A DNA stretch of 64,000 bases from Actinomycetota bacterium (GTDB lineage Bacteria; Actinomycetota; Acidimicrobiia; Acidimicrobiales; Ilumatobacteraceae): positions 62,001 to 126,000 of the forward strand of contig JACQZZ010000003.1 in the NCBI GenBank assembly GCA_016213625.1. Reading direction: 5' to 3'. Under the pieces are notes generated by a model, which searched no databases, was not told the DNA's origin, and worked only from the letters and a program-made list of their open reading frames with translations. Of this stretch, positions 17,029 to 59,099 are shown piece after piece; positions within the stretch are counted from its first letter, which is position 1; each line of letters opens with the position of its first letter. The translations under genes were made by a program, and so were the position numbers.

Positions 17029-18114
17029 TCAGAGTTCGGGCACCACGGTGTACGCCTGACCGCCGCCGCTGGCGATGACGTCGTCGAGCCAGTTGCCCTC
17101 GTACACGTCGTTGGGGCCTTGCATCAGGTCGTTCTCGGTGGCGCCGTCCGGCGTGGTCACCAGGGTCCACGCCTGACGCTTGTAGGTCCAGTTGGCCGGG
17201 TACAGGCGGTGTGCTTCGCGCCACCATGACACGGCCGCGTCGGGGCCGACCGTGCGACGGAGATGCTCGCCGAGTTCGAAGCACGCGGCCGCGCGAGCTT
17301 CCTCGTCGCCGCGGGGCTGCGACCTCGCGATCACCTCGTCGGCGGAGAGCACGAATCGCGACTCACTGCCGTGGTGGGCCCAGTCGACGATGGCGGCGCG
17401 GTAGTCGTCGCTCACGTCGGGGATGGCCTTCACCTCGCGGAACATGCGGTCCATGCGCTCGGGGAGTCCTTCGGGGATCTCCATGTCGCGCAGCGGGCTG
17501 CGCTCGATGGAGGCACCTTCCGCCGGACGCACGATGGTGCCGGTCTCGTCGATCCACACGGCCATCGGGATGTTGACGAAGCCGAACAGGTCGTCGGTGA
17601 CGTGATGTGTGTCGATCAGGCTGGGATGCGTGGGGTTGGCCGCGTCGATCCACTGGTACGTGTGCCGCGGCTCCACGTCGAGGGCGACGGTGACCACGGT
17701 GAGGCCGAGCGATTCGAGTTCTTCATGGAGCGCCTGCCACCCGGGCAGGCTGGTGCGGCAGCCTCAATAACTGGACCAGGCGACCAGCAGCACCTTTCGG
17801 CCGTGCAGGCTGCTGAGCCTGAACGGGTTGCCGTCGCGGGTGACGAGTTGCGAGTCGGCCGCGCTGGCCGTGGCGAGCGCCTTGCCGCCGAGCGTCGACG
17901 ACCCGAGTGCCCACAGGCGATGCGACTCGTCGTGCACCACCGGCATGCCGAGACGCTGAGCGGCGGCCTCGACGTCGACCGTGCCGTCGGCGCGCAGCGC
18001 GCCCGGTGCGGGCACACACAACTCGCCGCGACACAGCCCTTCGGGCTTGGGCGCCCAGCCGGTGCCCTCGGCGAAGTCGGCCGCCGACACCTGGTCGAGT
18101 GTGGAGAGGATCAT
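17029..18114 (-). CDS. Candidate selenoprotein, ResA-like redox protein with in-frame TGA (Sec117)
   Basis: One continuous minus-strand reading frame of 361 residues if the TGA at 17764-17766 is read as selenocysteine. The N-terminal 90 residues (LCRGELCVPAPGAL with a Cys pair) precede a thioredoxin/ResA-like domain: FRLSSLHGRKVLLVAWSSY, then TGA, then GCRTSLPGWQALHEEL and HPSLIDTHHVTDDLFGFVN. The TGA falls where the redox Cys would be, giving W-S-S-Y-U-G-C-R. From memory, a ResA-like family with a WAxxUGC motif is known to contain selenocysteine. A SECIS-like hairpin begins 13 bases after the TGA, and homology continues unbroken on both sides. Without Sec machinery this would be two broken genes (17764-18114 and 17029-17697). 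It follows the SCO6745-family gene by 19 bp. Confidence 0.82.
17732..17750 (-). promoter_or_regulatory. SECIS-like stem-loop after the Sec TGA
   Basis: On the minus strand the mRNA forms GCCUGCC (17750-17744), loop CGGGU (17743-17739), GGCAGGC (17738-17732): a perfect 7-bp stem with a 5-base loop. It starts 13 bases after the UGA, so 20 bases separate UGA and loop. Bacterial SECIS elements need a hairpin close behind the UGA with G near the start of a small loop, and this one fits. A stem of this size can also arise by chance in GC-rich DNA. Confidence 0.7.
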
Positions 18115-18133
18115 CGGACGACGGTAGCCCGGA

Positions 18134-19015
18134 TCAGCGCGCGGCCAGATCGGCCAGGTCGTGCGGGCCGCTCGCGGGGTAGCCCTTCGCCTCGCGAATG
18201 GCGGCGCCCCACGGCAGGAGGATGTCGACCAGCTCCTGCAGGTCGTCGCCGAGGGCGGCGACCATCGGATCCATCTGACGATCGGTGGCCACTTCCACGT
18301 CTTCGCGGAGCGTGCGGCCGGCGGTCGTGAAGCCCACGTCGTCGACGAGACCGCGCGACTTGAGCCGATCGTGCGCCGCGTCGAACTGGGCGTCGGTCCA
18401 GGCGCGGGTGCGGCTGTAGCTACGCATGGGCAAGCCCCAGTAGAGCTCGCTCAGCAGGCCGATCTCGGTGGCGTCGAGGCCTGCGCTGATCCAGGCCGCG
18501 GTGTGACTGTCGCCGCGGAACTCGCGCAGCATGTCGCCCAGTCGCCACGCCGCGCCGAGGTGGGTGCTGGGCATGGGCTGGGAGAGCACGCCGGCGAACA
18601 GCGGGCGGCCCTCGGGGCGCAGCGGTGCGGCCGCACGGGCGAGCAGTTCGTGGGCGCGGGCGGCGCCGTCGGGCTCCGCGCCGAGGATGCGCTCGAGCTG
18701 GGCGATGGCGCCGTCGTCGCGGGCCTCGACGATGGTGCGGGCATCGGTGATGGACCAACCGAAGTCCACCGACGGCACCACGGCTTCGGGGTTGAACACG
18801 GCGAAGGCGGCGGCCACGAGCTCGCCGGGCACGTGCCCCATGAGCGAACCGCGGCTGGTGAAGTACGCGGGGCCGTCGGGCAGGGCGACACCGTTGGTCT
18901 GGCCGCGGCTGTCGGCGAAGCCGAGCGAGACGTAGTTCGCATGGCATTCGGGGGAGAAGTACACCTGGCCCACGACGGGTTCGAGGGCAGCGGCGAGGGA
19001 TCGGGATGGCTGCAT
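18134..19015 (-). CDS. SCO6745 family protein (SalK-like)
   Basis: 293 residues, beginning MQPSRSLAAALEPVVGQVYFSPECH. It matches the actinobacterial SCO6745/SalK-type family as I know it: an N-terminal all-alpha part (FADSRGQTNGVALPDGPAYFTSRGSLMG) and a C-terminal winged-helix-like part around WTDAQFDAAHDRLKSRGLVD and TAGRTLREDVE. The function is unknown. It lies 19 bp upstream of the selenoprotein candidate on the same strand, so the two are probably one transcript, and it diverges from the GNAT gene at 19069. Confidence 0.82.
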   Translation of the reverse strand: MQPSRSLAAALEPVVGQVYFSPECHANYVSLGFADSRGQTNGVALPDGPAYFTSRGSLMGHVPGELVAAAFAVFNPEAVVPSVDFGWSITDARTIVEARDDGAIAQLERILGAEPDGAARAHELLARAAAPLRPEGRPLFAGVLSQPMPSTHLGAAWRLGDMLREFRGDSHTAAWISAGLDATEIGLLSELYWGLPMRSYSRTRAWTDAQFDAAHDRLKSRGLVDDVGFTTAGRTLREDVEVATDRQMDPMVAALGDDLQELVDILLPWGAAIREAKGYPASGPHDLADLAAR

Positions 19016-19638: not shown

Positions 19639-19926
19639 TCACGAAGGAATGTGACCACGGCGTGACGTGTCCGCGTCGACGGTTTGCATCGCGACCGCCA
19701 CAGGGCCACCCGTGGGAGCGCACGAGTTGGTTCGGCGGTGACGTCGCACCACGATCAGCAGAGCGGCGGCACCTACTGCGATCGCTGTGACCCCGAAGAG
19801 CGCGACTCCGGCAGCGGTGCCGAGACCGATGACGGCGAGGAAGGCGAGGATCGGTCCGGCGCAGCAGGCCGCGCAGGCGGCCACCCCGATGCCGGCGATG
19901 GCCATGTTCTCCTTCTTGCGGCTCAT
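19639..19926 (-). CDS. Small MerF/MerT-like membrane protein with vicinal cysteines
   Basis: 95 residues, beginning MSRKKENMAIAGIGVAACAACCAGPI. Two hydrophobic helices (about 8-32 and 35-58) carry a Cys cluster, CAACCAGP, in the first helix, like the Hg(II)-passing pairs of MerT and MerF; the Arg-rich tail is cytoplasmic. Its ATG (19924-19926) overlaps the merR stop as ATGA, so it is translationally coupled to the regulator. The likely role is metal (mercury or similar soft metal) transfer across the membrane. No merA reductase is adjacent, so mercury specificity is not proven. Confidence 0.7.
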   Translation of the reverse strand: MSRKKENMAIAGIGVAACAACCAGPILAFLAVIGLGTAAGVALFGVTAIAVGAAALLIVVRRHRRTNSCAPTGGPVAVAMQTVDADTSRRGHIPS

Positions 19927-20681
19927 GCGGGTTGACCGAACAGTGAGTGGAGTACCGGGAGTGCGTCGTGGGGTGCACGAACTTCCAAGGCGGTGCCTCG
20001 GCTGTCGATCGTGATCGCGAAGGTGAAGAACTGGCAGCAGTCCTGCTCGGCTGCTGCGAGACGCATCAACTCCCCGAGCGGGGTCGCGGGCCCGAGCGTG
20101 GCCCGCAGTCCGCCATCGATCGGCTCCCTGCGCTCGACGTGCGCGAGAAGGTGTCGCCAGTCGTCGAGGCGGCGGTCGATCGACTCGGGCCTGAGTGTGC
20201 ATGCGATCGGGGCAGCAGCCTGGTCGGGCTTTCCGCCGAGTGACACGGGTTGTGGCACGGCAGCGTCAGAAGCGTCGGTCACGCAACCGCAGTTTTCGTC
20301 GCAAGGGCCGTCGGGGCGGTGGGTCTGGAGCATCGCTGCCGCCCGTTGCAGATCGGTGGTCAGGGCCGTCAGCCCGACGATCTGCTGGCGGGCGGAGGCG
20401 AGTTTGTCGGCGACCAGCGTACGAAGTCGGTCCTGGACCGGGCCGCAATGACCGCCGTCCCAGGCGACGGTCAGTTCGGAGATCTCGTCGAGGCTGCAGC
20501 CGAGCTGCTTGGCACGCGAGATGAACGCGAGCCGGTCGAGCGTGCGATCGTCGTACAGCCGGTAACCGGCCGGCGTTCTGCTCGCTTCGGGGAGGAGCCC
20601 GATCTCCTCGTAGTAGCGCAACGTCGCGGCCGTGAATCCGCTGCGATCGGCGACGTCCTTGATCTTGTAGCTGGTGCTCAC
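19923..20681 (-). CDS. MerR family metal-responsive regulator with Cys-rich linker
   Basis: 252 residues from GTG 20679-20681. The N-terminal MerR helix-turn-helix (YKIKDVADRSGFTAATLRYY, EEIGLLPEA) and dimerisation helix are followed by CDENCGC at about residue 128, a plausible soft-metal site, then a C-terminal domain (about 160-252) containing AAEQDCCQFF. The extra domain makes it longer than classic MerR (about 140). It acts on a 19-bp-spaced promoter directly upstream and is coupled to the MerF-like gene. Confidence 0.87.
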   Translation of the reverse strand: MSTSYKIKDVADRSGFTAATLRYYEEIGLLPEASRTPAGYRLYDDRTLDRLAFISRAKQLGCSLDEISELTVAWDGGHCGPVQDRLRTLVADKLASARQQIVGLTALTTDLQRAAAMLQTHRPDGPCDENCGCVTDASDAAVPQPVSLGGKPDQAAAPIACTLRPESIDRRLDDWRHLLAHVERREPIDGGLRATLGPATPLGELMRLAAAEQDCCQFFTFAITIDSRGTALEVRAPHDALPVLHSLFGQPA

Positions 20682-20719: not shown

Positions 20720-21102
20720 GGGGTTTCGTGAACCGCCTCCCGATCCGCCGTCGCAGACGCAGAACTCGCAGCCAGCATCGTCAGCATCTCGCTGGCAGGC
20801 GTGGTGGCGGGCACCCGGGCACGGCCGGTGTTGCCGACCGGGTAGCGGCGAGCCGCGGAGCCGGGGCCGGCGACGACCAGCCGGAGAATCTGGCCGCGCA
20901 CCTCGACGTTGTCCCGGTCCCGCCAGGCCTGGGCGAGCATCGCGGCGTGGACGGCGACGTGGTCGAACGCCCACGGTTGGGACAGGATGTGAGCACGTTC
21001 GAGGTGTTCTCAGCCGTTCTCACCGGCACGGGAGGCACGTCGCGCGGTGGCGCGTTCGTCGTTGATCGTGTGACGTATCGGTTCGGGCGAGCGAAGGTTC
21101 AT
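20716..21102 (-). pseudogene. DUF3703 family protein interrupted by an in-frame TGA
   Basis: From the ATG at 21100-21102 the frame runs for 30 codons (MNLRSPEPIRHTINDERAT), hits TGA at 21010-21012, then continues for 97 codons with unbroken DUF3703 homology: EHLERAHILSQPWAFDHVAV, GQILRLVVAGPGSAARRYPV and GNTG. The TGA replaces a position that is usually aromatic (Trp or Phe) before HLERAHIL, so TGG-to-TGA mutation is the simplest reading. The start overlaps the CDF gene stop as ATGA. DUF3703 is often linked to metal genes; function unknown. Readthrough or a sequence error cannot be excluded. I see no convincing SECIS hairpin after this TGA. Confidence 0.72.
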
Positions 21103-21794
21103 CGCGGTGCGCAGCATGCGTCGCCGCGCCATGCCTCGCGCCCTTCCTTGAGTGCGACGGCGGCGATGACGAGGCCTGCCACTGGGTCGGCCCACGACCA
21201 TCCGAACCAGGCGTTGAGCAGTAGCCCGAACAACAACACGCCCGAGAGATAGGTGCACAACAGCGTCTGCTTCGAGTCGGCCACGGCACTGGCCGAGGCA
21301 AGTTCACGACCGGCGCGTCGTTGGGCGTAGGACAGGAACGGCATCACGGCCAGCGACACGGCAGCGAGCACGATGCCGACGGTCGACTCGTCCGCTTCGC
21401 CGGCGCCCAGCAACGCCCGAGTCGACTGCACGGCGACGTACGCGGCGAGGGCGAAGAACGACCACGCGATTACCCTCAGTGCGACACGCTCTCGTCGCTC
21501 GGGGTCGCTCGCCGAGAACTGCCACGCCACCACGGCGGCGGACGACACCTCGATCACGGAGTCCAGCCCGAACCCGACCAGTGCTGTCGACCCGGCGACG
21601 GTGCCGGCGGTGATGGCGATGATGCCTTCGACGATGTTGTAGGTGATCGTGGCGGCCACCAGCATCCGGACTCGCCGGTGCAACTGCTCGCGCCGCGCCG
21701 TCGACAACGCGCTCGGCGTCGGCGCCGGAGCGCAGCACTCGTCGGGGCAGCCGTCAGCGACGGTGGGCACGGCTTCCCTTGGCTGGATCTCCAT
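21099..21794 (-). CDS. CDF-type cation transporter with terminal cysteine motifs
   Basis: About 231 residues, beginning MEIQPREAVPTVADGCPDEC. Six predicted membrane helices of the cation diffusion facilitator type (GFGLDSVIEV in TM2, SAVADSKQTLLCTYLSG in TM5, each with a metal-site Asp). Unusually it has Cys pairs at both ends, DECCAP near residue 19 and DACCAP at the C-terminus, suggesting a soft metal such as Cd, Pb or Zn. The ATG at 21792-21794 overlaps the cmtR stop (TGATG), and its own stop overlaps the DUF3703 start (ATGA). Expected role: efflux of the metal sensed by CmtR. Confidence 0.85.
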   Translation of the reverse strand: MEIQPREAVPTVADGCPDECCAPAPTPSALSTARREQLHRRVRMLVAATITYNIVEGIIAITAGTVAGSTALVGFGLDSVIEVSSAAVVAWQFSASDPERRERVALRVIAWSFFALAAYVAVQSTRALLGAGEADESTVGIVLAAVSLAVMPFLSYAQRRAGRELASASAVADSKQTLLCTYLSGVLLFGLLLNAWFGWSWADPVAGLVIAAVALKEGREAWRGDACCAPR

Positions 21795-22123
21795 CAGCAG
21801 CAACCCTCCGCACTGGTCGGGCACAGCGAAGGGTCAGGGGCAACCACGATGGTCGACAGATCGCGCAGCATGGAACCCAGACGGGTGTCGGCGATCTCGT
21901 ACCGGACCCGCCGGCCCTCCTGCTCGGCGACCACCAGACCGCAGCCGCGCAGGCAGGCGAGATGGTTGGACACGTTCGCTCTCGTCATGCCCAGCGCGTG
22001 CGCGAGTTCCGCCGGGTATCCCGGCGCGTCGATCAACGCGACCAGCAACCGACGACGCGAGTCATCGGCCAACGCCAGGCCGATGCGGGCCAGCACATCG
22101 AGATCGACCAGTTGCATCGACAT
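21794..22123 (-). CDS. cmtR: CmtR-like ArsR family Cd/Pb-sensing repressor
   Basis: 109 residues. The winged helix TRANVSNHLACLRGCGLVVA carries two Cys spaced by four residues, and a third Cys lies in the tail (DPSLCPTSAEGCC). This matches the Cys57/Cys61/Cys102 arrangement described for mycobacterial CmtR, a Cd/Pb repressor. It heads the operon with the CDF transporter; a 28-bp inverted repeat lies six bases before its start and should be its own operator. Start at ATG 22121-22123 or, in frame, 22115-22117. Confidence 0.9.
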   Translation of the reverse strand: MSMQLVDLDVLARIGLALADDSRRRLLVALIDAPGYPAELAHALGMTRANVSNHLACLRGCGLVVAEQEGRRVRYEIADTRLGSMLRDLSTIVVAPDPSLCPTSAEGCC

Positions 22124-58888: not shown

Positions 58889-59053
58889 CACATGCCACTG
58901 GCCGTGGTCGGCGGCAGAGGGCCCCGCATGTACCAACCATATACCAGCACAGCGGTAAACAATGGGGAGTAGCGGGGACTCACGGGGAACACGAATCGCC
59001 CGCTGAGCTGCGAAGACTCCCGCTGACCAGGTAGGGCGCATCTGACCTGGAAT

Positions 59054-59099
59054 GGGCTCATAACCCGAAGGTCGCAGGTTCAAATCCTGCCCCCGCCAC
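59054..59099 (+). repeat. attR, right copy of the 46-bp direct repeat
   Basis: Identical to 52699-52744. It contains only the 3' half of the tRNA (no 5' acceptor or D-arm), so it is not a functional tRNA. It marks the right end of the integrated element. Confidence 0.9.

Follow-up and report, generated by a model that had tools for sequence, protein, structure and literature searches.

The stretch of DNA analyzed here (the window: 64,000 nucleotides (nt) of contig JACQZZ010000003.1, positions 62,001 to 126,000, from a bacterium of the Ilumatobacteraceae, Actinomycetota) carries on its minus strand, at 17029–18114, a gene for a predicted selenoprotein of 361 residues with selenocysteine (Sec, U) at position 117, assigned to NCBIfam NF041054 (WAxxUGC_long). 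Read from 18114 to 17029, the frame has an ATG start, an in-frame UGA as codon 117 (17764–17766) within the motif W-S-S-Y-U-G-C-R, and a terminal UGA as codon 362, with no further in-frame stop. The original prediction, made from the DNA letters, described 116 codons, a TGA within this motif, and 244 further codons; translation bears out both the motif and the counts (116 + 1 + 244), and the coordinates were right, the refinement being that the strand, which had gone unnamed, is the minus strand. Because long frames are common in GC-rich DNA, an open frame alone is weak evidence here; indeed a 355-residue open reading frame (ORF) on the plus strand (17263–18330) covers most of the same gene. 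Residues 1–357 align in a single stretch with positions 1–350 of the 354-position NF041054 profile, confirming that homology continues unbroken past the TGA, and, judged from the sequences, it is this homology spanning the UGA, not the length of the frame, that goes beyond chance.

The product scores 500.8 bits against NF041054 (ResA-like WAxxUGC motif-containing protein; cut-off 300), so that the family named in the original prediction exists and includes this protein. The UGC of the family name is present, and the preceding WA is WS (WSSYUGC), as in other members above the cut-off (e.g. L026 and L144). The cut-off was passed in 13 of 396 genomes sampled across the phylum and in 68 of 397 sampled across the order, both samples including the genome of the window. 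Among the order-sample matches listed above the cut-off, each has exactly one TGA; in the phylum sample, the above-cut-off matches lacking a TGA are fragments that fail to cover the site. The cut-off is likewise exceeded by proteins with Cys, such as L050 and L054 from Frankia, and both Frankia and Patulibacter have Cys forms of full length. Across 126 aligned rows (window gene included), the site is TGA in 44 and a Cys codon in 82, a ratio uninformative on frequency, since 80 of the 82 Cys forms came from a scan whose pattern demands Cys; the other two, L034 and L040, were found without it. The homologues do not end at the UGA, and the aligned residue in those read is U or C, as the homologue check proposed with the original prediction had asked. 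Four genomes (G398, G425, G515, and G709) each have at least three UGA-form matches above the cut-off among the matches listed. In genome G237 the family gene (L032) lies over different frames, with pieces covering 2–101, 96–136 with the TGA, and 147–354, a pattern that we describe as a frameshift or assembly error. A more distant redoxin (L041:1483–2172) has the motif FSSWUTC, with a UGA and a similar hairpin, and perhaps represents a separate selenoprotein subfamily.

Directly downstream of UGA117 lies a hairpin of the bacterial Sec insertion sequence (SECIS) type (17733–17749, minus strand), with six base pairs around a 5-nt loop, CGGGU (17743–17739); the distance from the UGA is 14 nt to the stem and 20 nt to the loop. 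The 44 UGA forms align gap-free over 45 nt from the UGA, and all six pairs are formed in 43 of them, as against 20 of the 82 Cys forms. Loop bases 1 and 4 pair with each other in 43/44 UGA forms versus 30/82 Cys forms, and G occupies loop position 2 in 44/44 versus 69/82. The two forms differ in synonymous codon choice at Leu123, Pro124, Gly125, and Val125, with no clear difference for the codons of Gln127 (p 0.15). Together with the inner loop pair there are seven pairs, of which, across the 42 distinct rows, four show two-sided changes, one shows a one-sided change, and two are invariant; in L037 both sides of the stem are rewritten with pairing kept. None of 500 shuffles reached any of the observed covariation measures, and RNAalifold, with no structure supplied, recovers the identical six pairs, three of them with two-sided changes. 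Structures slid along the alignment have 31%–68% of cells paired, with three two-sided-change pairs at slide −1. As related rows are non-independent, these figures overstate certainty, and the hairpin is recognized by comparison of relatives rather than by single-sequence stability. In the parts of a recent review that we consulted, the bacterial SECIS model has a loop of 3–9 nt, a stem of 4–16 pairs, and 16–37 nt from UGA to loop (PMC13188914); the window hairpin resembles this model in geometry (5 nt, six pairs, and 20 nt), in having a G among the first two loop positions, and in its loop-end pairing. Most relatives have GU in the loop and the window hairpin GG, either of which the model as given there permits. 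A covarying hairpin within a conserved coding stretch provides an example of RNA and protein constraints coexisting.

The assembly containing the window (4.5 Mb, 92% complete) encodes SelA, SelB, and SelD together with tRNA-Sec (anticodon TCA), each above its cut-off, with SelA and SelB adjoining on one contig; the search for selA, selB, selC, and selD proposed with the original prediction therefore finds all of them in the genome. In 14 control genomes, matches above cut-off were found for SelA in 2, SelB in 2, SelD in 2, and tRNA-Sec in 5. Among 18 UGA-form genomes of the phylum sample, SelA is present in 17 (not G036) and tRNA-Sec is above cut-off in 16 (not G354 or G064, which are 77% and 62% complete), so that each has SelA and/or tRNA-Sec, and in the Cys-form genomes G374 and G166 neither exceeds its cut-off. 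Genome G036 (94% complete) has a UGA-form gene (L037) and a strong tRNA-Sec match (77.9 bits) with no SelA match. In the order sample, SelA is present in 27/27 of the UGA-form genomes tested, namely those whose loci were newly fetched, versus 2/14 genomes with a site-spanning, stop-free match whose site residue was left unread (14 of the 15 among the matches listed, the fifteenth, G374, belonging to the phylum-sample test). The UGA form thus accompanies SelA within one order. In a wider named set of Cys forms (genomes of 41 of 80 loci), SelA exceeds the cut-off in 19, 15 of these at E < 1e-50, as expected given that a genome may retain Sec for other proteins.

A sequence match and a predicted model both place a thioredoxin-like (AhpC/TSA, TlpA/ResA-like) region at approximately residues 78–252 of the model (17359–17883, minus strand). 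It is preceded by an N-terminal part, for which no Pfam name was returned in the proteins scanned, with a CxxxxC pattern (Cys28–Cys33; 18016–18033, minus strand), and followed by a helical region in the model (about residues 269–325; 17140–17310, minus strand); the C-terminal parts of three relatives scanned gave weak TPR matches below curated cut-offs. The CxxxxC pattern is present in 42/44 UGA forms, the exceptions being L027, cut by a contig end, and the distant redoxin L041, and in 81/82 Cys forms, L092 having CRGEVC with a different next residue. Cys119 (17758–17760, minus strand) is present in all 126 rows, although the reading motif itself requires it. No obvious signal peptide or membrane anchor was seen in the product, no predictor having been run; because there is no obvious signal sequence, the protein probably acts in the cytosol.

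These observations strongly support Sec insertion at position 117, as far as sequence comparison can carry it, and the gene is a real one of an already catalogued kind of selenoprotein, correctly read by the original prediction. We consider it very probable that UGA117 is decoded via SelA, SelB, SelD, and tRNA-Sec with the downstream hairpin: tRNA-Sec would be charged through SelA and SelD, SelB, guided by the hairpin, would bring it to UGA117, and translation would then run on as far as codon 362, the terminal UGA. By analogy with general thioredoxin-fold chemistry, the attack would most likely be made by Sec117, in a U-x-C center where the first long helix of the thioredoxin-like domain begins, with Cys119 likely resolving; a Sec117–Cys119 selenenylsulfide would arise during reduction of a disulfide or peroxide-like substrate. 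Action as a peroxidase (peroxiredoxin-like) rather than as a thiol-disulfide reductase is possible, but we regard it as the less likely role for the selenoprotein. We are slightly more doubtful of a two-center cytosolic relay between Sec117–Cys119 and Cys28–Cys33, in a protein that, in this genome, may account largely or wholly for the retention of the Sec machinery. With respect to the latter point, the formate dehydrogenase alpha subunit of the same genome (882.7 bits) has Cys at its motif, and the SelD match has no in-frame UGA or stop (loci L167, own genome C43:6714–8741, and L010); therefore, these usual Sec users do not account for the retained machinery.

Explanations without Sec fare much worse. 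A pseudogene or sequencing error, in which a Cys codon was mutated or misread to UGA to leave a dead or truncated gene, could in a single genome not be distinguished from a recoded codon, since TGC or TGT becomes TGA by one base change; it is made very improbable by the TGA at the same codon in 43 other relatives read, by a hairpin nearly always formed with the TGA but in just 20 of the 82 Cys forms, and by equal GC content at third codon positions before and after UGA117 (0.888 versus 0.893). Similarly remote is the proposal of two genes or regulated truncation, in which the UGA genuinely terminates translation and what follows is made from its own internal start: a mechanical ORF caller does return separate ORFs of 116 and 222 residues, but such a stop would break up the thioredoxin-like domain, parting residue 116 from residue 118, and the translated long Cys-form relatives, that of Frankia included, are unbroken. 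Least credible is reading of the UGA as Trp or another residue via an altered code or suppressor tRNA, in favor of which nothing was found, and against which stand the gene's own UGA terminator, the presence of tRNA-Sec (anticodon TCA), selA, and selB, and the non-UGA relatives, which carry Cys rather than Trp in a reading that looked for U or C. Since gene callers would split or truncate such genes, Sec-encoding members are easily overlooked.

On a quick tree (126 rows and 205 columns, with the site masked; of the 123 inner branches, 48 are open, and L041, L035, L037, and L038 lie on long branches), the U/C label changes at least 10 times, four of these changes being forced by well supported branches, compared with approximately 36 changes in shuffles. 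One 50-row clade of the long form contains 39 UGA and 11 Cys rows, and the family offers a natural comparison of Sec with Cys within one protein. Three records titled Bifidobacterium breve (L118, L126, and L129) have genes that group with Acidimicrobiia rows, and these metagenome-assembled genome labels look wrong.

The neighbors of the gene are an HTH_67 gene ending 19 nt upstream, a DUF2505 gene, and a PAC2 gene; with 10 of 38 neighbor ORFs scanned, conservation was seen for HTH_67 only, and in the closest relative only. ORFs for a MerR-family regulator (19923–20681) and a cation efflux family protein (21099–21824) lie near the locus. Elsewhere in the window, Rfam matches a tRNA at 59030–59098 at borderline strength (29.8 bits, against a gathering threshold of 29), and ARAGORN calls none there.

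Among known systems, NF041054 is matched over nearly its full length, with the UGA at the named position and Ser in place of the Ala of the name. As seen in the portions consulted, a table in a 2008 ocean metagenome paper (PMC2398784) and a 2022 review (PMC9312934) list a “Prx-like (UGC-containing)” selenoprotein, and a 2026 review (PMC13188914) a “UGC-containing TlpA disulfide reductase family protein,” without naming NF041054 in the main text seen. The window protein resembles these entries in its U-G-C motif and its domain (pfam00578 or cd02966), a likeness of motif and domain rather than of representative sequences, the entries as seen being domain-level. Compared with ResA of Bacillus and with TlpA/DsbE/CcmG, which have CxxC, the window protein has U-x-C and additional N-terminal CxxxxC and C-terminal helical parts. 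ResA is membrane-anchored and exported, whereas the window protein has no obvious anchor or signal, and it scores 42.2 bits against the ResA model NF002854, below the 170-bit cut-off. The protein may work like ResA, but it is not filed as ResA proper because its active-site motif is, in alignments, one residue shorter than the CxxC of ResA.
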